Position numbers and translations under genes: made by a program. A stretch of DNA of 64,000 nucleotides from Crassaminicella profunda (GTDB lineage Bacteria; Bacillota; Clostridia; Peptostreptococcales; Thermotaleaceae), in the NCBI RefSeq assembly GCF_019884785.1, contig NZ_CP082326.1, positions 1,233,355-1,297,354 of the forward strand, read 5' to 3'. Below are positions 4,143-20,375 of the stretch, piece by piece (within the stretch, counting starts at the first letter, position 1; every line of letters starts with the position of its first letter). Under the pieces are notes generated by a model that searched no databases, was not told the DNA's origin, and saw only the letters and a program-made list of their open reading frames with translations.

Positions 4143-4198
4143 TTCTAAGAAAATTCTAATCTGTTTCTAAGAGAATTCTAATTTTTTAAAACTATAAT
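4143..4198 (+). promoter_or_regulatory. Box A: four 11-bp activator repeats plus -10, upstream of MCP
   Basis: TTCTAAG 4143, TTCTAAT 4154, TTCTAAG 4165 and TTCTAAT 4176 lie at exact 11-bp pitch. TATAAT is at 4193-4198, 17 bp after the start of the last repeat. There is no good -35 box; the last repeat occupies that place. This is the layout of PhoB/OmpR-type activators. The same layout recurs at 6177, 7371 and 12009. Confidence 0.8.
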
Positions 4199-4254
4199 AA
4201 GGGGATGAGGAAAGTAAATTATAAGAGTATTATGAGGTGAAAGGAGAGTTCTTG

Positions 4255-6030
4255 ATGGATTTAAAAGAAAAGAAAGAGAACGTGGTTCAAAGGTCAATTA
4301 AAGTAAAACTCATAGTAATTACGTTTATTTTACTTTTAATACCGATGATGATACTTGGAATAATAAGTTATATTAAAGTAGCAAGTGAACTAGATGCTAA
4401 GGGGGAGACAATCCTTAAAAATGCAGTGAAGTCTTCCTTTCAACTCATTGATTTAGCAGAGCAAGAAGTGGATACTAGAGGAGTAAGTCTTGAAGAAGCT
4501 CAGGAAAAGGTTAAAACAATATTAATAGGTAAAAAGAATGCTGATGGGACGAGAGAGCAAAATAAGCATATAGAACTAGGTGAAAATGGTTTTTACTTAA
4601 TACTTGATAGGGATGGGAATGTTATTGCCCATGATGAAATAGAAGGGAAAAATATATGGAACAATCAGGATGCATCTACAAGTAAAATATTATATGCTCA
4701 AGAACTTATTAAAAAGGGGCTAAATGGTGGTGGGTTTACAGAATATACTTTTGATACAAATGGTGTAACTGATCTAAATATAGTGTATACAGAAGTAGAC
4801 AAAAATTGGGGATGGATTATAGGGGCAGGTACATATGAAGACGATTTTGATAAAAGTGCAGGTTATATATTGAATATGATGTATATGATCATATTCGTAT
4901 CTTTAATTCTTGGAGCTATAGTTATTGTAGCATTTGCTAATCATATAGGAAATCCTATTAAAAAATTAACAATATTAATAGAGAAAACGAAAAATTTAGA
5001 TTTAGCTAGTGATGATGATTATAAGGATTTAGTAAAGAATACAGATGAAGTAGGCATGATGGCAAAATCCGTTATAGAAATGAGAGATTCCTTAAGAAAG
5101 ATCATTAATAATTTTAAAAATGGTGTAGAAGAAACGTTTACACATGCACAAGGATTATCTAACGCCGCCAATGAGACGGCCGTATGTAGTGATGATATTG
5201 CCAATACAATTGATATATTGGTGCAAGGAACATTAAATCAAGCTCAAGAATCTAAAAAAGGAACAAAGGAACTTTTAGTATTAGGAGAAGAAATTCATAA
5301 AACGAGGGTTAGTATAGATGGAGTAAGAGGAAATATTAATAGAACAAGTACTACAAATCAAAAAGGAATGCAACGAATAGAAGATTTATCTTTAAAAGCA
5401 GAAGAAAAACATATTGAAGCTGCTAAGGTTCGTAGAAATGTAAAGGAGTTATCCCAAAAGGCTATGACTATTGGACAGATGATAGAGATTATTACTCAGA
5501 TTTCAACACAAATAAATATTTTGGCTTTAAATGCTTCTATTGAAGCTGCAAGAGCAGGTGAAGCAGGAAAAGGGTTTGGAGTTGTTGCTAATGAAGTAAG
5601 AAAGCTTGCTGAAACTACAGATAAGACAACGGAGGATGTAAAAAAGATTATTCTAGGCATGCAAGTAAGTATACAAACAACAGAAGCAAGCGTGTATAGA
5701 GATAACCAAATGCAAGAGGAGTTAATACAAACTTTAGCTTGTGTAATAGAGAGCTTTAAGGATATAAATGAATCTGTAATAGAAATGGTTGAGGAAGTAG
5801 ATGTATTAACAGATAGTATAGTAAAAATGGATCAAGAGAAGAATATTGTGATAAGAAGTATTGAAAATATGTATACCATATCTAAAGATACAGCACAATT
5901 CACTCAAAAAATAAGTGGAAATATTGAAGAACAAACTGTAATGACACAGGAAGTAACTTCTATGGCAAATAATTTAGATGATATAGCAAAAAAGTTAAGC
6001 ACAGATCTAAAAAAGTTTAATATTAAATAA
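4255..6030 (+). CDS. Methyl-accepting chemotaxis protein with Cache sensor
   Basis: 591 residues from ATG 4255, 8 nt after AAAGGAG; a GTG at 4237 precedes that site and is less likely. Order of parts: short cytoplasmic start, TM1 about residues 18-40, an extracellular Cache domain ([23 protein letters not shown], ending [15 protein letters not shown]; reading as two adjacent motifs), TM2 about 210-230, HAMP, then a long coiled coil with the conserved hairpin [20 protein letters not shown] and [14 protein letters not shown]. It senses an external small molecule and signals to CheA/CheW. Expression is probably driven by the 11-bp repeats of box A. Confidence 0.95.
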
Positions 6031-6097
6031 GTGGTAAAGGAACATATCTAGTTATTGTAAGTAGGTATGTATACAATTTATAAGGATAAGGATAGAT

Positions 6098-6134
6098 AAA
6101 ACAGACATGGAGTACATTCCATGTCTGTTTTGTA
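6098..6134 (+). terminator. Terminator after MCP gene
   Basis: A 14-bp stem AAAACAGACATGGA / TCCATGTCTGTTTT. Confidence 0.9.
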
Positions 6135-6176
6135 TATATAGGGTGAAAATGAAAAACTTAATATATTTTAAGATAT

Positions 6177-6232
6177 TTCTAAGAAAATTCTAATTTTCTT
6201 CTAAGAAGGTTTTAATTTTTTAAAATTATAAT
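6177..6232 (+). promoter_or_regulatory. Box B: four 11-bp activator repeats plus -10
   Basis: TTCTAAG 6177, TTCTAAT 6188, TTCTAAG 6199 and TTTTAAT 6210, with TATAAT at 6227-6232. Pitch and -10 distance are identical to box A. Confidence 0.8.
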
Positions 6233-6295
6233 AAAGGGGTAAGGAAAGATACGTAAAGGATTAAAAAAGAGAGATTAATTGAAAAGGAAAGGAAA

Positions 6296-7366
6296 ATGAC
6301 TATGAATCATATACACATGATCATGCTTTTAAGTAGCGCAGTATTAGGTATTATAAGCTGGATATATATACAATTGTTTTCATTTCAGCCTCCAAAAGAA
6401 AAAAGATTAAAAATAAATATTAAAACAAAGGAGTGTATAAAAAAGCATGAGAGTCTTTCTATACTAACTTGGAATATTGGATATGCTGGATTAGGAAAAG
6501 AAGCTGATTTTTTCATGGATGGAGGAAAAAGTATGTTTCCAAAATCACAGAAGCTAATTCATAATCATTTAGAGAATATAGCAAAATTTATAGAAAATGA
6601 TCCTAGTGATCTTTACTTATTTCAAGAAGTAGCTGTAGATTCAAAAATTACATTTTATGTGAATAACTTAGAAAAGATTCAGACTGCTTTACAAAAGTAT
6701 AATTTTGTTTATTCACCTAGTGTGTATATTGAAAAATTCCCTATCATAGGTAAATTGCTTAGTGGAAATGCAATTTTTTCAAGGTATCTACCAGATGTAT
6801 CTACGAGGATGGCTTTGCCTTTAGAGAAAAAAGGAATCACAGGCATTTTCAATCAAAAATACAATTTTGTTGTTCAACGGTTTCTCATTGAGGATAGTAC
6901 AAAGGAATGGGTTATTGTTAACTTGCACCTAGCAGCTTTTGATAAAGATGGAAAAACTAGATATGAACAATTAAAAGAAATAAAAGCATTTATGTTGAGG
7001 GAGTATGAAAAAGGTAATTATGTAGTTGTTGGGGGAGACTGGAATCATCGATTAATCAAAACTACATTTCCTTATGATACACCTAAAAAGCATTTGTTTT
7101 GGATAAAGGACATCCCACATGATTTTAAGCCAGAAGGGTGGCAATGGGGAGTAGATAGACATCATCCTACTGTACGAACGTTAGAAAAGCCTTATATAAA
7201 GGATAAAAACTATACATGTGTCATTGATGGTTTTTTGGTATCACCGAATGTTGAAATTATGAAAGTGAATGGATTTAATCTTGGTTTTAAGGATACGGAT
7301 CATCATCCTGTTGCTATAAAGGTGAAACGAAAAGCTGTAGAAAATACTATGGATCTTTCTGCATGA
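6296..7366 (+). CDS. Membrane-anchored endonuclease/exonuclease/phosphatase-fold protein
   Basis: 356 residues. An N-terminal hydrophobic helix (about residues 6-26) anchors or exports the enzyme. The EEP fold follows: LTWNIGYAG near residue 58, LFQEV near 103 (metal-binding Glu), NLHLAAFD near 205, VVGGDWNH near 242 and DTDHHPVAIKV near 335 (catalytic His). The family includes sphingomyelinases, lipid phosphatases and nucleases. An exported enzyme under a PhoB-like promoter fits phosphate scavenging from lipids or nucleic acids, but the substrate is inferred. Confidence 0.85.
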   Translation: MTMNHIHMIMLLSSAVLGIISWIYIQLFSFQPPKEKRLKINIKTKECIKKHESLSILTWNIGYAGLGKEADFFMDGGKSMFPKSQKLIHNHLENIAKFIENDPSDLYLFQEVAVDSKITFYVNNLEKIQTALQKYNFVYSPSVYIEKFPIIGKLLSGNAIFSRYLPDVSTRMALPLEKKGITGIFNQKYNFVVQRFLIEDSTKEWVIVNLHLAAFDKDGKTRYEQLKEIKAFMLREYEKGNYVVVGGDWNHRLIKTTFPYDTPKKHLFWIKDIPHDFKPEGWQWGVDRHHPTVRTLEKPYIKDKNYTCVIDGFLVSPNVEIMKVNGFNLGFKDTDHHPVAIKVKRKAVENTMDLSA

Positions 7367-7370
7367 TTAT

Positions 7371-7426
7371 TTCTAATCAAATTCTAATTTTTATTTAATA
7401 AATCCTTAATCTTAATTATTTACAAT
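7371..7426 (+). promoter_or_regulatory. Box C: four 11-bp activator repeats plus -10
   Basis: TTCTAAT 7371, TTCTAAT 7382, ATTTAAT 7393 and CCTTAAT 7404, with TACAAT at 7421-7426, again 17 bp after the start of the last unit. It starts five bases after the preceding stop codon and drives the glycosyltransferase operon. Confidence 0.75.
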
Positions 7427-7467
7427 GAAATAAGAAAAAATATATAGCCATAAGGGGGAAGGGTAAA

Positions 7468-9744
7468 ATGAAAAAGCTATTAATTTTTACTGCCTCTACA
7501 GGAGGAGGGCATAATCAAGCTGCTGGATCCTTAGAAGAATTATTTGAGGCAAATGGATATGATGTTGTGATATTAGATGCTTTAAAAGAGGCTAATAAAG
7601 TAATAAATTGCATAATAACAGATGGGTATGAATTATTGGTGAAAAGATTGCCTAAGGCATATAGAGAACTGTATAGAAAGAGTGATGGAAAAAAAATAAA
7701 CTTAGGAATGGTTCATGTGATAACAAAATTGATGGAAGAAAAAATATACCATCTAATACAAGAAAATCAACCAGATATTATTATTGCTACCCATCCCTTT
7801 GTAGTAAATATCATTGGAGAACTCAAGAGAAAAGGAAAAATATCCATACCTTTTATGTCTATTGTTACGGATTATAAAGCACATCAGACTTACATTCATG
7901 AAAAGGTAGATGCTTACATTACAGGAAGTGATTATACAAAGATAGGCATGATAAAAAAAGGAGTAAAAGAGGAAAGAATTTTTCCGTATGGGATTCCTAT
8001 ACGAAAGGAATTTTTTATATGTTCTATTGATAAAAAAAAGAATAAAGAGGACATATTTACATTGTTACTAATGGGTGGAAGTATGGGACTTAAGGCTATG
8101 GAGAAGGTTTTGAAAAATATAATGAGCAGTAATAATAAAATAAAGATCATTACTGTTTGTGGAAATAATAAAAAGCTAAAAAAGAAAATAGAAAAGAAGT
8201 ACCAAGGGAAATTCAAAAACAAAGAAGTGTTTGTATATGGATTCACTAAAAATATCCCTGAATTAATGGAAATATCAGATGTGATTATTACAAAGCCAGG
8301 GGGATTGACAGTTTCAGAAGCTATCGTTAAAAATATTCCTATGATTATCCCTTATGTGATTCCAGGGCAAGAAGAAGAAAATGCAGATTTTTTAGTACAG
8401 TCGGGAGTAGCTCTTAGAGCGAAAAAGATAAAGCATATAGCAGATACGATAGATGGGTTGATAGAAAAGCCGCAAGAATTAACAAATATGAAAAGAAAAC
8501 TAAAAGATTTATCCAAAATGTATGATAGAGGAAGTATTGTTCAATTAGCTGATGAATTGATACGAAAATATTCAAATAAAATAAATGATAACAAAAAAGA
8601 GCATGTTCTAGTATTAACAGCAAATTTTGGATCAGGGCATGTAACGGTTGCAAAAGCAATAAAAGAACAGTTAGCAGTATATAATAATCGATTAAATATA
8701 AAAGTTATTGACATATTTGAAATCCTTAGTCCTCATTTAAATAATGAGTTATATAAAGGATATGAAGTTTTAATCAAAAAGACTCACAATATTTATAATT
8801 ATTTCTACCGAAAAAAATCTAATAAAGAAATAGGTATGGATAAAATTATTTATAAGATATATTTATCAAAAATAGCAAAATATATTCAAAAATTGAATCC
8901 TAAATTTATTGTGTCTACTTTTCCAGTATGTTCTGGTTTTGTATCTATGTATAAGGGAAAATATAAAAGCACCCTGCCACTCATTACTTGTATGACAGAT
9001 GTAGTGGATCATTGTGAATGGATTTATCCTAATACAGATAAATATTTGGTACCAACGAATAAGATAAAAGAACAGTTCATTTATAAAGGTATTCATAAAG
9101 ATAAGATTTATGTTACAGGGATTCCTGTAAGGAAAGATTTTTTAGATAAATATGAAAATGAGAAGATTAGAAGAACGTTAAACATAAAGGATAGTGAATT
9201 TGTTTTATTAATGATGGGTGGAGGTCTAGGCCTTTTACCTAAAGATAAGGAGTTATATGAGTGGTTAGACAGTCTAGAAAATGTTAAAACCATTATTGTA
9301 ACAGGGACGAATAAGAAGCAATATAGAGATTTGGTTCAGAATTTAAATTTAAAAAATACTATTGTGAAAGGATTTACTAATGAAGTAGCAGGGCTTATGA
9401 AACATGCGGATCTATTAATTACAAAAGCAGGGGGCGTAAGTATTTTTGAAGCTATTCATTCAGAGCTACCGATGATTGTTTATGAACCTATTTTAGCACA
9501 GGAAATAGAAAATGGTAAATTTATTGAAAACAGTGGAATCGGTGAAATTATAAAAAATACGAAGGAATTAAAAGAAAAAGTTAATACGTTTATAAAGAAT
9601 AGAGAAAAAAGAACTCAATTAAAAATGAATATAAAAAGAATAAAACAACAATCTGATAGCAGAGAATTTATAGACTGTATTTCAGAAATTTATGGAGAAG
9701 ATCTAAAAAAAGAAAAAATAATATTAAAAAGGAAGATGATATAA
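7468..9744 (+). CDS. Tandem-duplicated MGDG-synthase-type (GT28) glycosyltransferase
   Basis: 758 residues, about twice the usual 370-390 for UgtP/MGDG-synthase-like enzymes. Module 1 (about 1-370) has STGGGHNQAAGS near residue 9 and TKPGGLTVSEAI near 271. Module 2 (about 375-745) has TANFGSGHVTVAKAI near 380 and TKAGGVSIFEAI near 650. Both modules keep the glycine-rich acceptor loop and the nucleotide-sugar motif, so both may be active. The family transfers glucose or galactose from UDP-sugar to diacylglycerol at the membrane face. It is the first gene of a four-gene operon after box C. Confidence 0.9.
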   Translation: MKKLLIFTASTGGGHNQAAGSLEELFEANGYDVVILDALKEANKVINCIITDGYELLVKRLPKAYRELYRKSDGKKINLGMVHVITKLMEEKIYHLIQENQPDIIIATHPFVVNIIGELKRKGKISIPFMSIVTDYKAHQTYIHEKVDAYITGSDYTKIGMIKKGVKEERIFPYGIPIRKEFFICSIDKKKNKEDIFTLLLMGGSMGLKAMEKVLKNIMSSNNKIKIITVCGNNKKLKKKIEKKYQGKFKNKEVFVYGFTKNIPELMEISDVIITKPGGLTVSEAIVKNIPMIIPYVIPGQEEENADFLVQSGVALRAKKIKHIADTIDGLIEKPQELTNMKRKLKDLSKMYDRGSIVQLADELIRKYSNKINDNKKEHVLVLTANFGSGHVTVAKAIKEQLAVYNNRLNIKVIDIFEILSPHLNNELYKGYEVLIKKTHNIYNYFYRKKSNKEIGMDKIIYKIYLSKIAKYIQKLNPKFIVSTFPVCSGFVSMYKGKYKSTLPLITCMTDVVDHCEWIYPNTDKYLVPTNKIKEQFIYKGIHKDKIYVTGIPVRKDFLDKYENEKIRRTLNIKDSEFVLLMMGGGLGLLPKDKELYEWLDSLENVKTIIVTGTNKKQYRDLVQNLNLKNTIVKGFTNEVAGLMKHADLLITKAGGVSIFEAIHSELPMIVYEPILAQEIENGKFIENSGIGEIIKNTKELKEKVNTFIKNREKRTQLKMNIKRIKQQSDSREFIDCISEIYGEDLKKEKIILKRKMI

Positions 9745-10464
9745 GTGAAAATTATATTGTTTTTAATATTTCTTTTTATGATATATGGAGTGATTCCTAA
9801 TCATTACTATAAATATATATCAAGAAAAGTCATTAGAAAAATGGATGCTAAACAAAAACAAATTGCTTTAACTTTTGATGACGGACCTGACCCTAGATAT
9901 ACTCATGAACTTTTGGATCTATTGAAAGATTATAATATTCAGGCTACTTTTTTTCTAGTAGCTGAAAAATCCTTAAAAAATAGAGATATTCTTGAAAGAA
10001 TCATTCATGAAGGACATAGTATTGGCCTCCATTCTTTATCTCACAAACATGCATGGCTGAGTATGCCTTTTGAGACAAAAAAAGATTTTGAAAAGTCCAT
10101 GAAAATATTCAAAGAACTTAAGGTAAATCTAAAATTTTTCAGACCTCCCTGGGGAACTTTTAATATACTTACCCAATATTTTGCAAAAAAACTGGGGCTA
10201 GAGACCATATTATGGTCTATTAATGGAAGAGATTGGAGTAGTCAGGTTACATCAAAAGAGATAGCTAAAAGAATTATGAATTATATTCAAGATGGCGATA
10301 TCATACTCCTTCATGATAGCGGTGGGGCAGAAGGGGCGCCTAAAAGAACATTAGAAGCGCTAAAGGAAATTATCCCAAAGCTTAAAAATGATGGATACAA
10401 ATTTGTGACTATAGATGAAAAAGTAGGTGATTTAGAACATGAAAAAGCTATTCAAACTTATTGA
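9745..10464 (+). CDS. Polysaccharide deacetylase (NodB/CE4 family)
   Basis: 239 residues, GTG start directly after the glycosyltransferase stop. An N-terminal hydrophobic segment (1-18) anchors or exports it. CE4 motifs in order: LTFDDGPDPRYTHE near residue 43 (catalytic Asp, metal Asp), HSLSHKHAW near 94 (two metal His), RPPWG near 134 (catalytic Arg), and DIILLHDSGG near 183 (catalytic His). It probably removes acetyl groups from a cell-surface glycan or glycolipid. It overlaps the next gene by 26 bp. Confidence 0.92.
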   Translation: MKIILFLIFLFMIYGVIPNHYYKYISRKVIRKMDAKQKQIALTFDDGPDPRYTHELLDLLKDYNIQATFFLVAEKSLKNRDILERIIHEGHSIGLHSLSHKHAWLSMPFETKKDFEKSMKIFKELKVNLKFFRPPWGTFNILTQYFAKKLGLETILWSINGRDWSSQVTSKEIAKRIMNYIQDGDIILLHDSGGAEGAPKRTLEALKEIIPKLKNDGYKFVTIDEKVGDLEHEKAIQTY

Positions 10465-10957
10465 GAGAAGTGTTGTGAAAATCAATAATTGGAAGCATGT
10501 GCCTAATTCAAAAAGAAAACTATTATATATCTGCCCTCATGTATACAAAGGAAGAACAATAGAAATTTTAGATGGGACAATGATTAAAAATGGAGACGTA
10601 GTAGCAGAAATGCATATAGATAATTTGAAAGTTGATCAATTAGAAAATGATTATAGAAAACTCTTTAGAAGATTGAAAGAAGAATTACAAGCTTTAAGCA
10701 ACCTGATAATCAATGAAAAGGAATTTGAAGAGATTAAGGCATATCATGGAACCACTTTATTATATCCTCTTGCAAAGAAGCAGGGGTTTACCATTGTAGA
10801 GATGGATAAAGGACCTAAAAAATACTTTTTAATCTTATGGGAAAACATATTGAGAATTGTATTTAAAAAAGATAAAAAAATAAGAGATAGACTTAGGACG
10901 CCAAAAGAATGCTGGATTTCTAAAGGTCAATTACTACAAAAGTATATAGGAACTTAA
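10439..10957 (+). CDS. YkoP-like protein of glycolipid operon
   Basis: 172 residues, soluble and basic. It resembles the YkoP-like domain that in bacilli is linked or fused to polysaccharide deacetylases beside YkoN-type glycosyltransferases; the same neighbours occur here. Notable segments are LYICPHVYKGRTIEILDGT near residue 28, HIDNLKV near 60 and GTTLLYPLAKKQGF near 105. Biochemical function unknown. It is translationally coupled to the deacetylase gene by overlap. Confidence 0.6.
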   Translation: MKKLFKLIERSVVKINNWKHVPNSKRKLLYICPHVYKGRTIEILDGTMIKNGDVVAEMHIDNLKVDQLENDYRKLFRRLKEELQALSNLIINEKEFEEIKAYHGTTLLYPLAKKQGFTIVEMDKGPKKYFLILWENILRIVFKKDKKIRDRLRTPKECWISKGQLLQKYIGT

Positions 10958-10967
10958 GGAGAAGCAA

Positions 10968-11981
10968 ATGATAAAAAAGAGCATGAATTATGTTGTATTA
11001 TTCTTACTGATTATTCTTACATTTTGGATACTTATAGCAAATAATGATTTTTCAAGATTACCCTATTTATTAACAAAGATCGATAAAGGATATTTTAGCC
11101 TAGCTATAGGATGTATGCTTTTATATTGGATAGTGAACACCATCATATTGATAGATACTTCAAAAATGGTTTATTCTCAATTAACCTTTAAAAAGGCTTT
11201 TAAAATAACTATGATTGGACAATATTATAGTGCCATTACCCCTTTTGCAAGTGGAGGACAGCCAGCACAAATTTATTATATGACAAAGGATAAAATTTGT
11301 ACTGGTAAAGGAACATCTATTTTAATGATCAAGTTTATGATTTATCAAATGGTTGTAACGGTTTATGCTATTATTATGTTTTTATTGAAATGGAATGATC
11401 TTTCTAAGGATATAGCTATTGCATTGCCCTTTATACTTACAGGTATATGCATAAGCTTTATAGGAATTTTTATGATCTTTTTATTATTTTTTAATGAGAA
11501 CATTGTGGGAAAGATTTTTAATATGATTTTAAAACATTTAAAGAAATTTAACAATGTAAATAACCTTGAAAGGAAATTAGAAGAATATTTAGTTGAATAT
11601 ACTGAAAGTATTAAGGAATTAAAAAAACATAGAGGGGTGGCAATAAAGCTTTCGTGTATGACTTTCTTACAATTAACCTGCTATTTTAGTATAACTTATT
11701 TTATCTATATTGCATTTGGTCTAAAAGACGCTTCTATCATTGACATTATTGCTCTTCAATCTTTATTGTATATGGCAGTTTCTTTTATACCTACCCCAGG
11801 AACTGTTGGAGCATCAGAAGGTGGATTTCATATTCTTTTCAGTTTTTTATTCAAAGAGAATTTCCTTATATATGCCATGCTCCTATGGAGAATCATTAGC
11901 TATTATTCATGTATCATAATAGGTGGATTAACAACTCTTTTAATCCATTTTAAAGAATCTAAAAAGAAAGCAACCGTATAA
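10968..11981 (+). CDS. LPG synthase TM-region/flippase-like integral membrane protein
   Basis: 337 residues with about eight membrane helices. Family signatures are TPFASGGQPAQIYYM near residue 84 and IPTPGTVGASEGGF near 269. The PF03706 group covers the N-terminal flippase part of MprF and related lipid flippases; no aminoacyl-transferase domain is attached. As last gene after a glycosyltransferase and deacetylase it may move the glycolipid product across the membrane. Confidence 0.85.
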   Translation: MIKKSMNYVVLFLLIILTFWILIANNDFSRLPYLLTKIDKGYFSLAIGCMLLYWIVNTIILIDTSKMVYSQLTFKKAFKITMIGQYYSAITPFASGGQPAQIYYMTKDKICTGKGTSILMIKFMIYQMVVTVYAIIMFLLKWNDLSKDIAIALPFILTGICISFIGIFMIFLLFFNENIVGKIFNMILKHLKKFNNVNNLERKLEEYLVEYTESIKELKKHRGVAIKLSCMTFLQLTCYFSITYFIYIAFGLKDASIIDIIALQSLLYMAVSFIPTPGTVGASEGGFHILFSFLFKENFLIYAMLLWRIISYYSCIIIGGLTTLLIHFKESKKKATV

Positions 11982-11997
11982 ATGGTTGCTTTTTTTA
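11967..11997 (+). terminator. Terminator of glycolipid operon
   Basis: Stem AAAGCAACC / GGTTGCTTT overlapping the stop codon, followed by seven T. Confidence 0.9.
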
Positions 11998-12008
11998 CTT
12001 TTTAACAC

Positions 12009-12075
12009 TTTTAAATGAATTCTAATGAAATTTTAATGTACATCACATAAAGTGTTAATGTTCATCCATCATAAT
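12009..12075 (+). promoter_or_regulatory. Box D: five 11-bp activator units plus -10, upstream of Fe-S operon
   Basis: TTTTAAA 12009, TTCTAAT 12020, TTTTAAT 12031, a weak ATCACAT 12042 and TGTTAAT 12053, with CATAAT at 12070-12075. The 17-bp distance from last unit to -10 matches boxes A-C. Confidence 0.7.
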
Positions 12076-12141: not shown

Positions 12142-13386
12142 GTGAATAAAAAATTGAATGAAAGAATTTTAGAGATTTATAAAAATAATGTGTTACAAAC
12201 ATTAAATGATTTAAGAAAGGATCAGACATGTCCTGAAAATAGTGAATATTTTTTTAGATTAGCCCAAGAGTATTTTCTTAAAAATAAAACAGAGAATAAC
12301 CCTCCGAAGATAGGCTTGATTGGTACATGTATTCCTGAGGAAATTATTTATGCATTAGGGGCACAACCCCTATGGATTTTAGGTGGAAGTTTTGGAGCAG
12401 GACTTGCTGCGGATGAATATGTGCCAAGAGATACAGACCCAATAGTAAGATCAACTATAGGAATGATCAAATCTGGTTTAGTTCCTAGTATTTATGATTG
12501 TAAAGCAATCATTACACCCGTAGCTTATGATGGAGAAAGAAAAATGGTGGGGGTTCTTTCAAAGGATATGGAGGTGTGGCCTGTTGAAATTCCACCAATT
12601 AAAGGGAATGCAAGTTCTAATCTTAAGTGGCTACAACAAATTGATAAAATTAGGACTTTGATGGAAAAGAAGATAGGAAAAAAAATAAATGAACAAAATT
12701 TAATGGTTGCAGCAAAACGGGTTCGTTTAGCAAAACTTCAGATAAAAGAATTAATGGAAATAAAGAAAAAAAATCCTCAAAGTATTTCTGGAAGTTTAAT
12801 GCTTTTTATTATGAACACCTATTATTTTAATAATGATCTCAAAAGATGGATTGATGAAATGAAAACATTCAATAAGGAATTAAAAAATAGAATGAAAAAC
12901 CATGAAGGTTATGATACAAAGCCTAAAATACTCATTATGGGTTCTCCTATTTATTTTCCAAATATGAAGATACCAAAATTATTAGAGGAATTAGGAGCAG
13001 AGGTAGCTGCTTTTGAGATGGAAGGACGTTTTCTATATAAAGATGAGATTACTCCTTATGATAGTTCTTTAAAGGGTCTCCTCTATCATATTGCATTAAA
13101 GCATTATTTGTATGATTATTCTCCATATTTTATCTCAAATGAAGATAGAATGAGCTTACTAAAAAACATTGCTAGGACCCGTAAGATTAAAGGTATTCTT
13201 TATCATGTGTTAAAGGGACATTTGTCCTACGATTTTGAATTAGAAGATATTGAAAAAGCCTTTAGCAAAGAGGGAATCCCTGTGTTTCGAATAGAAACAG
13301 ATTATAATTATGAAGATATTGAACAATTAAGAATACGTACAGAAGCGGTAATAGAAATGCTATCAACAAAAGAAATAAATCATTAG
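12142..13386 (+). CDS. 2-hydroxyacyl-CoA dehydratase/double-cubane family protein lacking cluster cysteines
   Basis: 414 residues, GTG start. It is clearly homologous to the second copy at 15331 along its whole length: IPEEIIYALGA near residue 64, PRDTDPIVRS near 95, GSPIYFPNMKIP near 267, SYDFELEDIEKAF near 362 and a YEDIEQLRIR tail. It keeps only Cys30, Cys63 and Cys120. At places where the partner has Cys110, Cys140 and Cys373 this protein has Asp, Tyr and His; the LCGG and CTC motifs are also lost. It therefore probably cannot hold the usual Fe-S cluster and may be a structural or substrate-binding partner. Confidence 0.85.
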   Translation: MNKKLNERILEIYKNNVLQTLNDLRKDQTCPENSEYFFRLAQEYFLKNKTENNPPKIGLIGTCIPEEIIYALGAQPLWILGGSFGAGLAADEYVPRDTDPIVRSTIGMIKSGLVPSIYDCKAIITPVAYDGERKMVGVLSKDMEVWPVEIPPIKGNASSNLKWLQQIDKIRTLMEKKIGKKINEQNLMVAAKRVRLAKLQIKELMEIKKKNPQSISGSLMLFIMNTYYFNNDLKRWIDEMKTFNKELKNRMKNHEGYDTKPKILIMGSPIYFPNMKIPKLLEELGAEVAAFEMEGRFLYKDEITPYDSSLKGLLYHIALKHYLYDYSPYFISNEDRMSLLKNIARTRKIKGILYHVLKGHLSYDFELEDIEKAFSKEGIPVFRIETDYNYEDIEQLRIRTEAVIEMLSTKEINH

Positions 13387-13395
13387 GAGGAATTA

Positions 13396-14397
13396 ATGAT
13401 GGAATTGAATAAAAACATATTCAAAAACAGAAAAATTTGTATAATTGTTGCAATTGTAGCAGTTATGTGTACATGCTTTTCAATACTTGATTACTATAAA
13501 GACGGTTTTTATGATGGTGAGAATATTTATAGAAGTAAAAATATAAAGGTTAAGTATGATGCTCAAGGACAATCAAAAACATTTTATCAATCTTTATGGT
13601 GGAAAAAAGATTTATTTGGGGATATTACCCTTAATAAAAGTGCTAGTTTATCAGATAAGATCGCTGAAGTTTATGTAAAAACAGGATGGAATGAAACAAA
13701 TCGAGTGGAATTATCACAAGAACAAACTACAGATATTAGTTGCTATGGGCCTACCCTATTAGGAGCACGTATAGATGCAGGTATTCAAGATATAGATGGA
13801 GATGGAAAGAAGGAACAAGTATATTATTATGGACAAACAGCTATAAATGGTAGAGGTTTTGATGGAGATGGTGATGGAGACGGTGATGGTGATGAAGATG
13901 GACCTTTTCACAAGGGCTATGATCAAAAAAATAGAAATACAAATTTTCAATATAAGCATTTAACATTTGAAAACATTGAAAAAATGAGCTTAGGAATTAT
14001 TCCAGCAGAAGAAAGTGTTTTTCAAGTATTGTTTAAGGGTGAACCATTAGTAAACAAAGAGATAAAAATCATATCAGAATCAGGACTCAATGAGGTAGTA
14101 AGGACTAATATGGATGGATATTTTTATATAAAAGACTTGAGGGTTGCAACAAATGGGATGAATGTAATCTATAAAGATGATTCATCAGAAAAAGGAGAAA
14201 ATACTTATCATATTCTAAACTATAAGGTGCAGGATTTAGACAATAGAGGATTTTTTTCTACTGGAAAATTAATAGGATTAATAATAATCATGATTTTAGG
14301 CGTCATTGGAGTAAATAAGCTGTTAATAGAAAAAAGAAGAAAGGTAAATAATGAACTTCTTTTCGAAATGAATGATTTAGAAAAGGAGGACCAATAG
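13396..14397 (+). CDS. Bitopic membrane protein with Asp/Gly-rich repeat and Ig-like domain
   Basis: 333 residues after AGGAGG. TM1 at about 13-31, a large extracytoplasmic part, and TM2 at about 291-310 with a short basic cytoplasmic tail. The outer part has a Ca-loop-like DIDGDGKKE near 132, an Asp/Gly run at 155-169, and a beta domain of carboxypeptidase-regulatory or DUF4198 type (LVNKEIKII, then TNMDGYFYIKDL) near 218-250. No enzyme motif seen. Lying between the Fe-S protein genes it is probably an outer-face partner of the complex, perhaps a metal or ion-binding one. Confidence 0.7.
   Translation: MMELNKNIFKNRKICIIVAIVAVMCTCFSILDYYKDGFYDGENIYRSKNIKVKYDAQGQSKTFYQSLWWKKDLFGDITLNKSASLSDKIAEVYVKTGWNETNRVELSQEQTTDISCYGPTLLGARIDAGIQDIDGDGKKEQVYYYGQTAINGRGFDGDGDGDGDGDEDGPFHKGYDQKNRNTNFQYKHLTFENIEKMSLGIIPAEESVFQVLFKGEPLVNKEIKIISESGLNEVVRTNMDGYFYIKDLRVATNGMNVIYKDDSSEKGENTYHILNYKVQDLDNRGFFSTGKLIGLIIIMILGVIGVNKLLIEKRRKVNNELLFEMNDLEKEDQ
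13861..13902 (+). repeat. GATGGN in-frame microsatellite in the membrane protein gene
   Basis: About seven units of GATGGA/GATGGT/GACGGT encoding Gly-Asp pairs. Units are near identical, so copy number may vary between strains without a frame change. Confidence 0.75.
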
Positions 14398-15324
14398 ATG
14401 AGAAGATTAGTACCAAGATTAAGATGGATCATTTTAATATTAAGTTTTATTCTCCTTACTTTTGGTGTTCAAATTGTTGGAACAAGAATCTATAATTTGA
14501 AACTTCCCATACTCCAATGTGTTTATAATAAGGACTATTTAGTAGAAGGAAGCTGTTATACTATTACGGAATTTGGAGAGTGGTTTATGAACAATTTAAC
14601 CCTTGGAAATATGATGAGTGTTTTATTTTTCGTAGGCTCAACCATCCTCTTGATCATTATATTTGGTAGATTATTATGTGGTTTTGTATGTCCTTTTGGG
14701 TTTATACAAGATGTATTGACTTTTATACGTGAAAAACTGCATATACCAGCTGTGAGGTTTTCTGAAAAGACAAGAGAGAAGCTAAAATTAATAAAATGGA
14801 TACTGCTTTTTATATTTCTAGTAGGGTTTGAATTGTGTGAACTGTGTCCTGTACGAGCTATTATTCCTCCATTGACAGGAAGTGGACTCGAAATGGATGG
14901 TTTAAGTGTGGTAGTTGCAATAGTTGTCATTGTTGGTGGATTTTTTAAAGATCGACTGTGGTGTAATTACTGTCCCATGGGATACTTAGTTGGGATTTTC
15001 CATAAATTTTCTTTCATAAAATTAAAAAAAGATTGTACAGCATGTACAGAATGTGGGATTTGTTATGAAGCTTGTCCTATGGATATAAAGAGTATTTATA
15101 CAGAAAGAGAAAAGGAAGATATTACTAAAAATGATTGTATATTCTGTATGAAATGCATAGATCAGTGTCCAGAGGACAAAGCCATAAAGACTACATTTTT
15201 AGGAAAAGAGATATATTCTTCTTCTAGAGATAATTTCCACAAAAACCATAAAATCTATGGAAACCTTGAAAAGAAGAAGGATGTATCGAAATTGTGGGAA
15301 CCATCAGAAAGTAGGAAGGGGTAG
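14398..15324 (+). CDS. NapH/MauN-type membrane polyferredoxin
   Basis: 308 residues with four to five membrane helices and many cysteines. Motifs in order: CGFVCPFGFIQD at 94-105, CELCP at 147-151, CNYCP at 189-193, then two ferredoxin-type 4Fe-4S motifs at the cytoplasmic end, CTACTECGICYEACP at 213-227 and CIFCMKCIDQCP at 247-258. Such proteins pass electrons between the quinone pool or membrane and soluble or outer partners. Here it could supply low-potential electrons to the activator/double-cubane proteins encoded next door. Confidence 0.9.
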   Translation: MRRLVPRLRWIILILSFILLTFGVQIVGTRIYNLKLPILQCVYNKDYLVEGSCYTITEFGEWFMNNLTLGNMMSVLFFVGSTILLIIIFGRLLCGFVCPFGFIQDVLTFIREKLHIPAVRFSEKTREKLKLIKWILLFIFLVGFELCELCPVRAIIPPLTGSGLEMDGLSVVVAIVVIVGGFFKDRLWCNYCPMGYLVGIFHKFSFIKLKKDCTACTECGICYEACPMDIKSIYTEREKEDITKNDCIFCMKCIDQCPEDKAIKTTFLGKEIYSSSRDNFHKNHKIYGNLEKKKDVSKLWEPSESRKG

Positions 15325-15330
15325 ACTGGA

Positions 15331-16614
15331 ATGACACAAAATTTAAATGATATAAGAAAAGAGAAAAGATTTAAAAGGTTTGAAAGGAATATGATCAGAT
15401 TATCTTATAAAGCTATTAAGGATCTTGAAGAAATGAAAGGATGTCCTGAAAATTTCAAATATTTCAGCAATGTATTAAAGAGAACTTTTGTGGATGGTGA
15501 GAGTTTAAAGGATAGAGAAAAGGTAGATACCATAGGCACATATTGCGTAATGATTCCAGAAGAATTGATCTATGCTTCTGGAGCATTACCTGTAAGATTG
15601 TGTGGAGGAAATCATATTGCTACATTGGCAGGAGATGAAAGAGCACCTAGAGATGCATGTCCTCTTGTACGTGCATCCATAGGATTTCAGGCTTATGATC
15701 TTTTACCGATCTATAAGGATTGTAAAGCATTGATGATTCCTACAACATGTGATGGAAAAAGGAAAATGACATCTATTCTCTCAAAGTATAAAAAAGTCAT
15801 TCCTCTTCATGTTCCTACATTAAAAGATGAAGAAGAAGCAAAGGAAAGCTTTTTAAAAGATTTGTATGCTTTAAAGAACACTTTAGAGAAAATGACAGGA
15901 AATGAAATAACCTATGATCGATTAAAGTATGCCACTCAGGCTATAGCTTCTGCTCAATATGAAATTAGACGACTATACAATATAAAAAAGCAAAATCCTT
16001 CTGTCATAAAGGGAACTGCAGCTATGGCAATATTAAATGCATATGCATATGATCGGGTGGATTTGTGGGCGGATGCCTTATCTAAATTAAATGATGAGTT
16101 AGAAAAAAGAATTAGAGAAAAGGAGTGTATAGGCTCTGAAAGATCTCCTAGGATACTTATTACAGGGTCACCAGTTGTTTTTCCAAATATGAAAATTCCT
16201 TATTTGATTGAAGAACAGGGAGGAATTGTTGCAGCAGATGAGACATGCATGGGAGAGAGAGGTCTTTATGATCCTGTGGCAGTAACAGATAATTCTTTTG
16301 ATGGGATGATGAGAGGATTAGCAGCAAGATATACTTTGCCATGTACTTGTCCATCCTTTACCTATAATGATGAAAGAGTATTTAAAATAAAGCAACTTAT
16401 AAAGGATTTTCATATAGATGGTATAGTTTACCATGTTATTAGAGGATGTGTATCTTATGATTTTGAACTAAGAAATATTGAAGAGGAAATGAAGAAACTA
16501 AATATACCTATACTTAGAGTTGAAACAGATTATAATACAGAAGATGTGGAGCAACTAAGGATAAGAATCGAAGCATTTATGGAAATGATTCAAGTAGAAA
16601 AAATAAAAGGATAA
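15331..16614 (+). CDS. 2-hydroxyacyl-CoA dehydratase/double-cubane cluster-type protein, cysteines intact
   Basis: 427 residues. Candidate cluster cysteines are Cys72 (GTYCVMIPEE), Cys91 (RLCGG), Cys110 (PRDACPLVRAS), Cys140 (PTTCDGKRKM), Cys306, Cys338, Cys340 (LPCTCPSF) and Cys373 (RGCVSYDFEL). This fits the HgdB/BcrC/double-cubane family, in which an activator ATPase injects electrons for difficult reductions. No CoA-transferase, acyl-CoA dehydrogenase or Etf gene is nearby, so the fermentative dehydratase role is unlikely. A double-cubane reductase is the better label, but its substrate is unknown. Confidence 0.85.
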   Translation: MTQNLNDIRKEKRFKRFERNMIRLSYKAIKDLEEMKGCPENFKYFSNVLKRTFVDGESLKDREKVDTIGTYCVMIPEELIYASGALPVRLCGGNHIATLAGDERAPRDACPLVRASIGFQAYDLLPIYKDCKALMIPTTCDGKRKMTSILSKYKKVIPLHVPTLKDEEEAKESFLKDLYALKNTLEKMTGNEITYDRLKYATQAIASAQYEIRRLYNIKKQNPSVIKGTAAMAILNAYAYDRVDLWADALSKLNDELEKRIREKECIGSERSPRILITGSPVVFPNMKIPYLIEEQGGIVAADETCMGERGLYDPVAVTDNSFDGMMRGLAARYTLPCTCPSFTYNDERVFKIKQLIKDFHIDGIVYHVIRGCVSYDFELRNIEEEMKKLNIPILRVETDYNTEDVEQLRIRIEAFMEMIQVEKIKG

Positions 16615-16630
16615 AGAGGGGAGAAAAAAT

Positions 16631-17416
16631 ATGAGATATTTTGCAGGAATTGATGCAGGATCTACTTATGTAAAAGCAGCATTAATAGATGAAAAAGGGG
16701 TCGTAGGTGTAAAGGTAGCTAATACGGGGATTGATAATGTGACTACTGCAAAAAGATTATTAGAAGAATTAGCAAAAGATGCGAATATAAAATTTGAAGA
16801 TATTTCCTTTATCATGGCAACGGGATATAGTAGAAGAGGGATTGAAATTGCGAGTGATAATATTTCTGAAATTACAGCTCATGCATATGGAGTAAGGCTT
16901 ACTGCACCAGAGGGAGTAAAACCTAGATTGATTATAGATATTGGAGGACAAGACAGTAAAGTAATTTCTTTAGATGAAAACCTTCAAGTAAATAATTTTG
17001 TTATGAATGATAAATGTGCTGCAGGAACAGGAAAATTTATAGAGGTAATTGCGGGGTTACTAGAAACCACAATTGATCAAGTAGGATACTTATCCCTTGA
17101 AAGTATAGATCCTTGTGATATCAATAGTACATGTGTTGTTTTTGCACAATCAGAAGTGATTTCATTGATGGCTAGAAAAATTGATCGAAAGGATATTTTA
17201 GCAGGAATGCATTTATCCATGGCTAAGAGGGTTTCAAAAATGGCGAGAAAGTTTGATGTGAATGTAGATGTACTTATGACTGGAGGAGGAGCATTAAACA
17301 GTGGACTTCACGGGGCTTTTGAAGATGAATTGATGACAGATATATTTGTAGCAAATTATCCACAATTTAATGGGGCTATTGGTGCGGCATTGATTGGAAG
17401 AGAAAGGGCTGAGTGA
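16631..17416 (+). CDS. ATP-dependent activator (HgdC/BadF-type ATPase)
   Basis: 261 residues, the normal length. ASKHA ATPase motifs: GIDAGSTYVKAALID at 6-20, DIGGQDSKV at 103-111, and TGGGALNSG near 217. Cys129 (NDKCAAGTGKF) and Cys168 (STCVVFAQSE) are the conserved pair whose four copies in the homodimer hold one bridging 4Fe-4S cluster. ATP hydrolysis drives one electron into the partner protein. A ribosome site GAGGGGAG precedes ATG. It lies directly after its likely partner at 15331. Confidence 0.93.
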   Translation: MRYFAGIDAGSTYVKAALIDEKGVVGVKVANTGIDNVTTAKRLLEELAKDANIKFEDISFIMATGYSRRGIEIASDNISEITAHAYGVRLTAPEGVKPRLIIDIGGQDSKVISLDENLQVNNFVMNDKCAAGTGKFIEVIAGLLETTIDQVGYLSLESIDPCDINSTCVVFAQSEVISLMARKIDRKDILAGMHLSMAKRVSKMARKFDVNVDVLMTGGGALNSGLHGAFEDELMTDIFVANYPQFNGAIGAALIGRERAE

Positions 17417-18111
17417 TCTATATGGAAAATATTATTGCTCAGTATGGCTCTCCCTTTATGGCAGCCATATTGATTGGTTTAGGATGTGGTTTTTCTTGTG
17501 GTTCAACAAGTACAGTTTTTTTAACCACTTATATTATGGGAAATGAAAATGATACAAAAAAAGGATTCTTTTCTGTAATACATTTTCTTTTAGGAAAAAT
17601 AATGGTTATGATTTTATTAGGGCTTATTTCATCCTTGATGGGAACTGCAATCATTGGACAAAATACAACTATTGGAGGATTTGATTCGAAAATTATATTA
17701 AATATTGTTGAAATTTTCACAGGGATTATGATTCTTTATAAGTTGTTTAAAAAGAAAAGCTGTTGTGATAAAAAAAGCTGTAGCAAAACTGTTACGAACA
17801 AAGAAAAAAAGGAAAGAATTATTGAGCATGTTCCTTTATGGTTAGCAGGTGTAGCATATGGTATGACGCCATGTTATCCTCTAGCTGTGATGCTTTTATT
17901 TTCAGCAACGCTAACATCATTAAATGCATGTCTTTTAATGTTGGTATTTGGTATTTTTAATTCCATATCACCTGTGATAATTTATGGTACTATGGCTGGA
18001 TATTTTTCAAAGAAAATGTATAAGGAAATTCCTCAATATGTGCATTTAATCCAAGGAATGGCGGCGGTTATATTTATATTTGTTGGTGTATACCCATTCA
18101 TAATAAAATAG
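17413..18111 (+). CDS. CcdA/DsbD-like six-helix membrane protein
   Basis: Two starts are possible: GTG 17413, overlapping the previous stop by 4 bp, or ATG 17422. About six helices. Intramembrane cysteines appear as GLGCGFSCGS near residue 24 and TPCYPL near residue 157; a cytoplasmic loop carries CCDKKSC. This pattern fits the DsbD_2/CcdA group that moves reducing equivalents across the membrane by thiol exchange. As last gene of the Fe-S operon it may deliver electrons outward or help mature an outer-face component. Confidence 0.8.
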   Translation: MIYMENIIAQYGSPFMAAILIGLGCGFSCGSTSTVFLTTYIMGNENDTKKGFFSVIHFLLGKIMVMILLGLISSLMGTAIIGQNTTIGGFDSKIILNIVEIFTGIMILYKLFKKKSCCDKKSCSKTVTNKEKKERIIEHVPLWLAGVAYGMTPCYPLAVMLLFSATLTSLNACLLMLVFGIFNSISPVIIYGTMAGYFSKKMYKEIPQYVHLIQGMAAVIFIFVGVYPFIIK

Positions 18112-18292: not shown

Positions 18293-18976
18293 GTGAAAGC
18301 ATATAGAATACTCATTATAGAAGATGAAGAAAAAATCGCTAGGTTTGTTGAACTAGAGCTTAAATATGAGGAGTATGAAGTAGCTATAAAACATGATGGG
18401 AGAGAAGGCCTTAAAGAAATTGAAGAAAGAGACTATGATTTAGTAATATTAGATATTATGCTTCCAGGAATTAATGGTATGGAGGTTTGTAGAAGGGTAA
18501 GACGCTTTTCAGATGTACCCATCATTATGTTGACAGCGAAAGATCAGGTTGAGGATAAGGTTATGGGGCTTGATTTAGGCGCCCATGATTATTTGACAAA
18601 GCCCTTTGCAATAGAAGAATTATTAGCAAGAATTCGAGGGGTTTTGAAAAGAGCACAAGGAGTAAGGAAAAATAGTAATCATATAAAAATAAAAAATTTG
18701 ACCATAAATACAGATATTCATCAAGTAAAAGTAGGAGAAAATCTTATAGATTTGACTAAGAGAGAATATGAGTTATTAGCATATCTTCTTAAAAATAAGC
18801 AAATCGTTTTAACAAGGGAACAGATACTAGAAGCTGTATGGGGATATGATTATCTAGGAGATACTAACGTGGTGGATGTATATATAAGATATTTAAGAAG
18901 TAAAATTGATGATCCATATAAAGAAAAGTATATTCATACAGTAAGAGGAGTAGGGTATGTGATTAAAGATGAATAA
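18293..18976 (+). CDS. OmpR/PhoB-family response regulator
   Basis: 227 residues. Receiver domain 1-120 with the acidic pair IIEDEEK, phospho-acceptor Asp in LVILDIMLPG (about residue 54), Thr in MLTAKD and Lys in LTKPF. A winged-helix DNA-binding domain spans about 132-226 (LTKREYELLAYLLKN, then VDVYIRYLRSKID and TVRGVGYVI). The closest named relatives by eye are ArlR/CzcR-like regulators. OmpR-type regulators bind tandem 11-bp repeats, so this one is a candidate for boxes A-D, although a PhoB encoded elsewhere is equally possible. Overlaps its kinase by 8 bp. Confidence 0.95.
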   Translation: MKAYRILIIEDEEKIARFVELELKYEEYEVAIKHDGREGLKEIEERDYDLVILDIMLPGINGMEVCRRVRRFSDVPIIMLTAKDQVEDKVMGLDLGAHDYLTKPFAIEELLARIRGVLKRAQGVRKNSNHIKIKNLTINTDIHQVKVGENLIDLTKREYELLAYLLKNKQIVLTREQILEAVWGYDYLGDTNVVDVYIRYLRSKIDDPYKEKYIHTVRGVGYVIKDE

Positions 18977-20375
18977 AATAAAATTAAAGAATTTTAAAAA
19001 CAAAAGAATATCCATCTCTTTTAAATTGACAGCAATCTATGCAGTGATTCTTTCTTTGATTCTAATTATTATTAGTATGATGAGTAATTGGCAAGTTAAA
19101 CGTATTTTAGTACAGCAAACAAAGGAAGAACTACAAAAGACCTATCAATTGGTTGAAGCATACATTCAAGAAGGAAAACCTATCAATGAAGATTTATTCA
19201 AAGAAATAAATTTTAATAATATCTATTTGAAAATTTATAATGAAAATGGCGTAATATTAGAAAGTAAATACAAAGCTGTTGATCAAGAAATATACAATCA
19301 AGTAGAGGGTGGTGGAGGAAATTGGGATAACTATGAATGGGAAGATATTGATCAAGTAGATGTATTTTATATGCATAAGGAGCTATCAAAAGATACGAAG
19401 TTATATTCTATGTTGTTAGTAAAAAACATAGAGGAACAAGACCATTTCGTGCAAATATTGGATAATAATTTAATGATGATGAATATAGTAGGGGTCATCA
19501 TAGCAATTTTATCAGGTATTTATTTGAGTAAAAAACTATTATTCCCCATAAAAAAGATTACCAATGCAGCAAAAGAAATCAGTGTTTATGATTTGAATAG
19601 TCGAATAGATATTGGAGGTCCTGATGATGAATTAAAGGAACTTGCATGTACCTTTAATGATATGATTGGGCGATTACAAGAATCTTTTGAAAGACAAAAG
19701 CAGTTTGTTTCGGATGCTTCCCATGAGTTAAGAACTCCTATTGCTGTTATTCAAGGATATATAAATTTACTTGATAGATGGGGAAAGGATGATCGGGAAG
19801 TTTTAGAAGAATCTATTGATGCAATAAAAAGTGAGACAGAAAATATGAAAAGGCTTTTAGAGCAACTTCTATTTTTAGCTAGAGGAGATAATGAATCCTA
19901 TAAGCTAGAGAAACAAGAGTTTAGATTGAGTGAACTAATAGAGGATATTATAAAAGAAACGAAATTAATAGATCAAATCCATGAAATTGAATGTTTTGTA
20001 GATCAAGATACATGGATATATGCTGATTCTAAGCTAATAAAGCAAATGTTGAGAATATTGATGGATAACAGCATTAAATTTACGCCAGTAAATGGGAAAA
20101 TTAGAATTGCTTCAGAAAAATATAATAACCATGTAGTCATTCGTGTAGAGGATTCAGGGATTGGAATTCCTAAAGAAGATATTCCCTATATTTTTGATCG
20201 TTTCTATCGTTCTGATAAATCTAGGACAAAAGCTACTGGTGGTGCTGGACTGGGATTGTCTATTGCAAAATGGATTGTAGAAAGCCATAATGGAAATATA
20301 GAAGTAGAAAGTCAATTGGAAAAAGGCACAAAAATGATTGTAAAATTACCAATCCATAAAAATCACTTATCTTAA
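18969..20375 (+). CDS. Sensor histidine kinase paired with the response regulator
   Basis: 468 residues. TM1 about 17-38, an extracellular sensor loop of about 130 residues with an unusual GGGGNWDNYEWEDIDQ segment, TM2 about 164-184, HAMP, HisKA with FVSDASHELRTPIAVIQGY (phospho-His), and HATPase with MDNSIKFTP (N box), DSGIGIPKEDIPYIFDRFYR and GGAGLGLSIAK. Domain plan is ArlS/CzcS-like. The signal is unknown; the loop is not a recognisable PAS or Cache domain. Confidence 0.95.
   Translation: MNKIKLKNFKNKRISISFKLTAIYAVILSLILIIISMMSNWQVKRILVQQTKEELQKTYQLVEAYIQEGKPINEDLFKEINFNNIYLKIYNENGVILESKYKAVDQEIYNQVEGGGGNWDNYEWEDIDQVDVFYMHKELSKDTKLYSMLLVKNIEEQDHFVQILDNNLMMMNIVGVIIAILSGIYLSKKLLFPIKKITNAAKEISVYDLNSRIDIGGPDDELKELACTFNDMIGRLQESFERQKQFVSDASHELRTPIAVIQGYINLLDRWGKDDREVLEESIDAIKSETENMKRLLEQLLFLARGDNESYKLEKQEFRLSELIEDIIKETKLIDQIHEIECFVDQDTWIYADSKLIKQMLRILMDNSIKFTPVNGKIRIASEKYNNHVVIRVEDSGIGIPKEDIPYIFDRFYRSDKSRTKATGGAGLGLSIAKWIVESHNGNIEVESQLEKGTKMIVKLPIHKNHLS

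Follow-up and report, generated by a model that had tools for sequence, protein, structure and literature searches.

Within 8 kb of the genome of Crassaminicella profunda, four promoters carry rows of short direct repeats that overlap the position of a -35 box, which raises the question of whether the genes behind them answer to a single regulator and, if so, to which one. The promoters lie in a stretch of 64,000 nucleotides (the window), positions 1233355-1297354 of a single-contig genome of 4,589,101 bp, and stand before a chemoreceptor gene, a gene for an EEP-fold domain protein, a glycolipid operon and an Fe-S operon. A preliminary description of the window, made from its letters, had called the repeats boxes A to D and had ascribed them to a PhoB/OmpR-type activator. 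Here we propose that boxes A to D are the operators of one dedicated two-component system, whose genes follow the Fe-S operon (operon D). We put this reading at a probability of about 0.85, because the sequence and spacing of the boxes, their rarity in the genome, their co-occurrence with the regulator and the gene order in a second genome of the order (G235) all point to it.

Four promoters with units at an 11-bp pitch

Read directly from the sequence, boxes A to D are built of TTYTAA(T/G)-like units at an exact 11-bp pitch, with a -10 hexamer that always begins 17 bp from the start of the last unit, where the preliminary description had placed them, except that box B begins one unit earlier, at 6166 instead of 6177 (Table 1). 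It had also noted that none of the four has a good -35 box, and indeed the best -35 matches of promoters A, B, C and D at spacers of 15-19 bp are 3, 2, 2 and 2 of 6 bases, respectively. The word "identical", which it had used of the four sites, is too strong, though the shared tandem architecture stands: boxes A and B are near-perfect, in box C two units are strong and two weak, and in box D the fourth unit is degenerate and the -10 is off consensus.

Table 1. Positions of the promoter elements and genes discussed, counted from the first letter of the window; the positions of the TTTTAAG arrays refer to the whole genome.
Feature	Position	Strand	Details
Box A	4143-4182	+	TTCTAAG 4143, TTCTAAT 4154, TTCTAAG 4165, TTCTAAT 4176; score 43.5
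Promoter A -10	4193-4198	+	TATAAT; 17 bp from start of last box A unit
Chemoreceptor with sCache_2	4255-6030	+	ATG 4255, 6 bp past AGGAGAG; start in the ORF (open reading frame) list GTG 4237
Box B, five units	6166-6216	+	TTTTAAG 6166, TTCTAAG 6177, TTCTAAT 6188, TTCTAAG 6199, TTTTAAT 6210; score 41.8
Promoter B -10	6227-6232	+	TATAAT; 17 bp from start of last box B unit
EEP-fold domain protein	6296-7366	+	Pfam match just below cut-off; N-terminal hydrophobic stretch by eye
Box C	7371-7410	+	TTCTAAT 7371, TTCTAAT 7382, ATTTAAT 7393, CCTTAAT 7404; score 31.5
Promoter C -10	7421-7426	+	TACAAT; 17 bp from start of last box C unit
Fused tandem MGDG-synthase-like glycosyltransferase	7468-9744	+	hexS-like
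Polysaccharide deacetylase	9745-10464	+	hexD-like
YkoP-domain protein	10439-10957	+
LPG_synthase_TM flippase-like protein	10968-11981	+	hexF-like
Terminator-like hairpin	11963-11996		at end of hexF-like gene
Box D, five positions	12009-12059	+	TTTTAAA 12009, TTCTAAT 12020, TTTTAAT 12031, ATCACAT 12042, TGTTAAT 12053; score 23.0
Promoter D -10	12070-12075	+	CATAAT; 17 bp from start of last box D unit
Operon D, six genes	12142-18111	+	HGD-D (double-cubane type), 333-aa protein, NapH-like, HGD-D, activase, DsbD_2
OmpR-family response regulator	18293-18976	+	proposed reader of boxes A-D; recognition helix TNVVDVYIRYLR
Cognate sensor histidine kinase	18969-20375	+	HAMP, HisKA, HATPase_c
TTTTAAG array (L045)	367503 (genome)		before ABC-transporter operon (gene names by eye)
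TTTTAAG array (L027)	2397910 (genome)	-	one of three loci
TTTTAAG array (L046)	2756609 (genome)	-	one of three loci

Sites were scored with a matrix of four units plus the -10. In 120 dinucleotide shuffles of the window the best score per shuffle was 14.0 +/- 2.2, with a maximum of 20.7, and all four boxes lie above that maximum. The matrix was trained on the units of boxes A to D themselves and makes their absolute scores flattering, so that conservation tests weigh more than scores.

When the whole genome was searched for units 1, 2 and 4 plus the -10 with at most one mismatch, the matches were boxes A, B, C and D, a shifted register of B and one TTTTAAG array (367503); at this stringency there were thus no equal-scoring sites at random places of the kind that would have spoken against a regulon. 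Two mismatches added six further rows, namely two more TTTTAAG arrays, three scattered sites and box A in a shifted register; the reversed control of this pattern gave 9 matches when up to two mismatches were allowed. A simpler pattern of three TTCTAA units at 11 bp, with at most two mismatches, occurs at 11 places in the genome, eight of which are registers of A to D and three scattered, compared with 10 matches to the reversed pattern. A loose scan at three mismatches yielded 97 matches against 115 for its reversed control, which makes weak matches alone meaningless; two of its matches pointed to separate TTTTAAG arrays. As far as the scanned patterns detect, the regulon is local, within 8 kb.

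The three TTTTAAG loci, all outside the window, represent a second class of 11-bp array in the same genome, with the unit found in CiaR sites. By eye, one array stands before a thioredoxin-like lipoprotein gene that is divergent from a regulator-kinase pair, and another before a membrane-protease-like gene that has a NapH-like gene behind it.

The boxes follow one family of regulators

We compared the distribution of the pattern with that of the regulator encoded behind operon D (the window regulator; Response_reg and Trans_reg_C domains). Among 297 genomes of the order, 26 contain the full pattern, with 30 matches in all, and none contains its reverse. A regulator of this family (E<=1e-70) is present in 25 of the 26 matching genomes, as against 94 of the 297 overall (2 x 2 table 25/69/1/202; Fisher p = 5e-13), a p value that is optimistic, the genomes being related to one another. 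The E cut was picked after the table was seen. Without the -10, the pattern matches 38 times in 32 genomes, again with no match to the reversed control. Of the 30 loci examined among these 38, 28 have TANNNT at +17, compared with no more than 8 for each of the other offsets between 8 and 33, and of the two loci that lack it there one (L394) is a simple repeat. Loci found by protein gave the same geometry: strong four-unit arrays had a pitch of 11 in 21 of 28 loci and pitches of 8, 9, 10, 12, 13 or 14 in none, and the best -10 offset was 17 in 16 of the 21. The expectation that the repeats would be conserved in other species was therefore borne out, though mostly before other genes.

These numbers also bear on whether boxes A to D might be chance repeats in AT-rich DNA. 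The base composition of the window (27.6-32.0% GC in 4-kb steps) and the degeneracy of box D speak for chance, and the loose patterns given above, like the three-unit pattern in the family genomes described below, are no commoner than their reversed controls. The shuffles, the absence of reversed four-unit matches from all 297 genomes and the conservation of the arrangement nevertheless leave this explanation hardly credible, in agreement with the preliminary view that chance was improbable. For boxes A to C we consider a chance origin refuted; box D alone could be weak.

Within the family, orthologues with 62-67% identity occur in five of the 15 other genomes (G001, G004, G005, G010 and G011), and in all five a four-unit box with a -10 at +17 heads an operon of a small protein, the regulator and its kinase. 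Pfam identifies the small protein of G011 as DUF4342, and those of the other four resemble it by eye. In box-headed regulator operons of Clostridia, the first gene often encodes a DUF4342 protein whose start looks UBA-like by eye (L104:9554-10027 and similar); this usual partner is named in no open-licence paper that we found in PubMed Central (PMC). Boxes also head an RND transporter gene in G004 and, in G020, genes of the ABC-transporter and PepSY types. Among three other genomes of the genus (G006, G007 and G008) no orthologue of the regulator was found, the best identities being 44-47%.

As a control for the link, we scored loci of paralogous OmpR-type regulators in the same way, with the matrix trained on the window alone. 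Of the 30 loci of the regulator family that were found by protein, counting that of the window, 20 exceed 17.8, the highest score among 53 paralogue loci (a set that holds at least one locus twice, L018 being L097), and in 19 of these 20 the box lies upstream of the regulator, the exception being L245, where it lies downstream. When the set was widened to 69 regulator-family loci, 48 had an upstream site that scored higher than all reverse-strand null values (maximum 17.0, n=69).

Gene order in G235, which belongs to another family of the same order, connects the regulator with the genes of the window. G235 has two copies of the regulator, each in a box-headed operon. Copy 1 (82% identical) follows an HGD-D gene, a protein gene, a NapH-like gene, a second HGD-D gene, an activase and a membrane-protein gene, and is itself followed by a kinase and a chemoreceptor; the products are 59-95% identical to those of operon D, the regulator-kinase pair and chemoreceptor A of the window. 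Copy 2 (78%) stands behind glycosyltransferase, deacetylase and flippase genes and before a kinase gene. The window thus has both target sets beside a single regulator. That the closest operon D with regulator is found in another family (activase 95% identical) suggests gain by transfer, or loss.

The membrane-protein and regulator genes are 14 bp apart in G235, compared with 181 bp from operon D to the regulator gene in the window. Because of the short gap in G235, and because the terminator scan found no plus-strand site between 12373 and 18293 of the window, box D probably also drives expression of the regulator by read-through.

Unit sequence and recognition helix

We then compared the recognition helices with the units in the 48 clear boxes of the 69 loci, taking the second of four helix residues. 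Where this residue is Asn (the four then reading TN.. in nearly all cases), all 35 boxes have T as base 7 of unit 2, and where it is Lys or Arg all 13 have C; in unit 1, a single box among the 12 with Lys has T. The pst-linked regulator of the C. profunda genome, with Arg at the same place and TTTAAC units, agrees with this pairing.

Regulators with Ala at helix position 3 (TNAV, TNAI, SNAV; L325, L328, L334, L336, L338 and others) have normal units 1 and 2, and units 3 and 4 often carry GAAG or CAAAT in place of TAA, possibly a second specificity rule. Two related loci, L350 and L352, have TTCTCAT units with an unchanged TNVV helix, and their scores of 15.0 are below the null maximum of 17.0.

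Weighing the assignment

Several observations weigh against the assignment of boxes A to D to the window regulator and its kinase. No box was found within 1500 bp on either side of the window regulator gene, which, given the 181-bp gap, could have a separate promoter. Among the 69 regulator-family loci, 21 have no clear upstream box, including that of the closest relative (L231, 83% identical), whose operon is box-headed further off. Likewise, 69 of the 94 regulator-positive genomes have no strict match, partly through variants of the box, and G269 has a box match and no regulator at E<=1e-70. In G002 and G003 the glycolipid operon C is present and both regulator orthologue and box are absent, so operon C does not need a regulator of this type. 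A three-unit pattern with at most one mismatch and no -10 gave 8 matches in the 16 family genomes against 7 for the reversed control (five are boxes A or B, one is a real box in G004, and two, in G001 and G013, are coding-like). Finally, the covariation of helix and base is a single change on the tree and counts as one event, so that a sign test for it cannot reach significance.

The perfect box of G269 (L288) precedes the gene of a probable secreted protein, and a kinase-like gene, 30% identical to that of the window, lies in the same stretch.

Another of the genome's OmpR-type regulators (34 domain matches) might read the boxes, in which case the closeness of the window regulator would be coincidental. 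The lack of a box immediately upstream of its gene fits this, as does the prospect that other regulators use similar units, for example those of the TTTTAAG arrays. Set against it are the operon-heading boxes of G235, which go with the same regulator family, the upstream boxes in 19 of the 30 loci and the TNVVDVY helix, which the window regulator alone has among the 30 own regulators aligned. We consider this alternative improbable and favour the adjacent system.

Phosphate control, an unlikely alternative

The preliminary description had suggested PhoB and phosphate, so we asked whether boxes A to D could be PHO boxes that place the four operons in a PhoP/PhoB phosphate-starvation regulon. 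The geometry is of the same class: a PHO box consists of 11-nt direct repeat units with seven conserved bases each, bound head-to-tail by OmpR/PhoB-family proteins (PMC4415409), and a regulator of that family is predicted here too. Glycolipid synthesis and a phosphatase-fold enzyme would moreover suit phosphate saving. The unit sequence, the identity of the regulator and the target genes differ, however. The genome has one phoU above the cut-off (at 2028965), beside pstS, pstC, pstA and pstB, and the locus also holds a PnpS-type kinase above the cut-off and its regulator. By eye, the units in the promoters of pstS and pstC are TTTAAC(A), unlike those of A to D, and the whole-genome box scans found no match inside the phoPR-pstSCAB-phoU locus. 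The helix of the pst-linked regulator, TRTVDVHIRHLR, differs from TNVVDVYIRYLR of the window regulator, and across genomes the box follows the family of the latter. The window regulator reaches 212.2 bits against the PhoB model, whose cut-off is 296.2, a weak test in that the pst-linked regulator is also below it, at 272.3. A role for PhoB/PhoP at boxes A to D was accordingly rejected, the genome's own pst promoters carrying different units, and we hold the phosphate regulon to be very unlikely. What stands of the earlier proposal is an OmpR/PhoB-type activator in the -35 region, as geometry and comparison suggest, and the same two lines of evidence favour its view of the four transcription units as one regulon.

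A model for the proposed dedicated system

In the model that we favour, an envelope or redox signal would activate the kinase. An envelope signal is our first guess, because RND, ABC-transporter and PepSY genes are box-headed elsewhere; redox comes second, from the content of operon D. The phosphorylated regulator would then bind the four units head-to-tail, covering about -62 to -23 on the assumption of a transcription start 7 bp beyond the -10, and would replace the missing -35 contact, so that transcription could proceed from the -10 at its 17-bp distance from the last unit start. The genes switched on in this way would be those of the hexSDF-like glycolipid operon, the EEP-fold enzyme, the chemoreceptor and the Fe-S operon D. 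The last of these leads to the regulator-kinase genes, with no terminator-like site found between, and box D may make the loop self-reinforcing. Binding, activation, read-through and signal are all inferred.

Direct repeats at about one helical turn that overlap the -35 position, as in boxes A to D, are typical of the tandem-repeat activator promoters of the OmpR/PhoB family. The sign could still be the opposite, with the regulator repressing, or arrays mixing activation and repression: geometry alone leaves the sign unproven, and the last of the units falls between the -35 and the -10. Against this, the four boxes of the window all occupy the same place in promoters that lack a good -35, and in other loci the -10 keeps to +17, which is the arrangement of activated promoters such as those of CiaR (PMC3091779). 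We think repression unlikely, and activation by the dedicated system remains our preferred reading.

As for the target genes, the NapH-like product of operon D is an Fe-S membrane protein and the DsbD_2 product a membrane protein. Both HGD-D proteins are of the double-cubane type, and the 333-aa protein has an acidic Gly-Asp repeat and no Pfam or NCBIfam match. The glycosyltransferase of operon C consists of two MGDG-synthase-like enzymes fused head-to-tail, which are two separate genes in G002 and G003; that of G235 copy 2 is a relative of the second half only.

Occurrence outside the order

A scan with the full pattern, one genome per species, found at least 119 loci, in Clostridia, Halanaerobiales and Bacteroidota among others (titles were seen for 80 of the 119 listed). 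Among the listed loci, 58 have a regulator with a TN..DVY helix and 3 another regulator match, one of which (L126) reads TNVIDVY but is cut off. Ten are simple tandem repeats, 2 among the 58 and 8 without a regulator, and the remaining 50 have no regulator match in the stretch examined. The Bacteroidota regulators are about 38-47% identical to that of the window, with helices such as TNVIDVYVNYLR. In a quick FastTree tree, 16 regulators from outside the order group with 71 orthologues apart from 29 own paralogues (support 100), with long branches among the paralogues; the 16 were picked by hand from the listed loci and comprise 12 with Bacteroidota titles, one titled Saccharibacteria (L138) and 3 whose titles were not seen. 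By eye, the Bacteroidota element at +17 is often TAnnTTTG; TANNNT was part of the scan pattern, and the 17-bp spacing in Bacteroidota is thus partly selected.

Tentatively, at a little short of even odds, we propose a regulator family of Bacillota and Bacteroidota with one promoter grammar, namely four TTYTAAT units at 11 bp followed, 17 bp from the last unit start, by a -10-like element. In this proposal the two phyla seemingly use different -10 elements, one Asn-to-Lys/Arg change in the helix shifts base 7 from T to C, and in Clostridia the family became linked secondarily to membrane glycolipid and Fe-S operons, where it replaces HexRK-type control.

Relation to known systems

Tandem operators of OmpR-type regulators are of a kind already known. 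In CiaR-activated promoters of streptococci, TTTAAG repeats are separated by 5 bp and the -10 comes ten bp past the last of them (PMC3091779). CiaR, also of the OmpR family, shares both the 11-bp pitch and the -10 distance, and when TTTAAG is set against bases 2-7 of TTYTAAT its spacing is identical to that of boxes A to D; the helices, VVEVYVSKVRKKL and VVDVYIRYLRSKI, resemble each other as well. The CiaR sites differ in having two units rather than four, other gene content and an invariable final G, whereas base 7 is mostly T here, with G and T alternating in boxes A and B.

HexSDF of Clostridioides difficile makes an aminohexosyl glycolipid under the control of HexRK (PMC10128005), and operon C matches it in content, with glycosyltransferase, deacetylase and flippase. 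A two-component system is in both cases, here by prediction, in charge of an MGDG-synthase-like enzyme, a deacetylase and a flippase, and the G235 order of glycosyltransferase, deacetylase, flippase, regulator and kinase is the same; the window differs in its tandem fusion and its added YkoP gene. The main text of the HexSDF paper uses neither "motif" nor "direct repeat". In L276 and L277, which have the hexSDF-hexRK gene order and are therefore probably Clostridioides, the regulator beside hexSDF is 37% identical to that of the window, on which ground orthology of the window regulator to HexR was rejected. No such box was found upstream of hexS in either locus (best score 16.9, elsewhere in L276). 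Operons of the same hexSDF-like kind thus seem to be under different two-component systems.

A search of PDB sequences with the window regulator gave no close characterised regulator, the best match being RegX3. No NCBIfam model was above its cut-off among the best 25 of 100 matches for this regulator, or among the best 25 of 37 for its G011 orthologue. Neither the TTYTAAT unit nor its link to a regulator family, the four-unit grammar or the gene set was found in our searches of open-licence PMC papers, mostly as listed, one of them for TTCTAATC with "two-component".

Sequences bound by YrkP of B. subtilis have reportedly been described, and may overlap with the present motif.

Implications

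Through the boxes, a regulator family for which no NCBIfam model stood above its cut-off among the best-listed matches would acquire an operator and a regulon, and a hexSDF-like glycolipid operon is seen beside a regulator other than HexR. The exact spacing makes target prediction unusually clean, as the reversed controls across the order indicate. The paired variants of helix and base, in turn, suggest a simple specificity rule for OmpR-type regulators.

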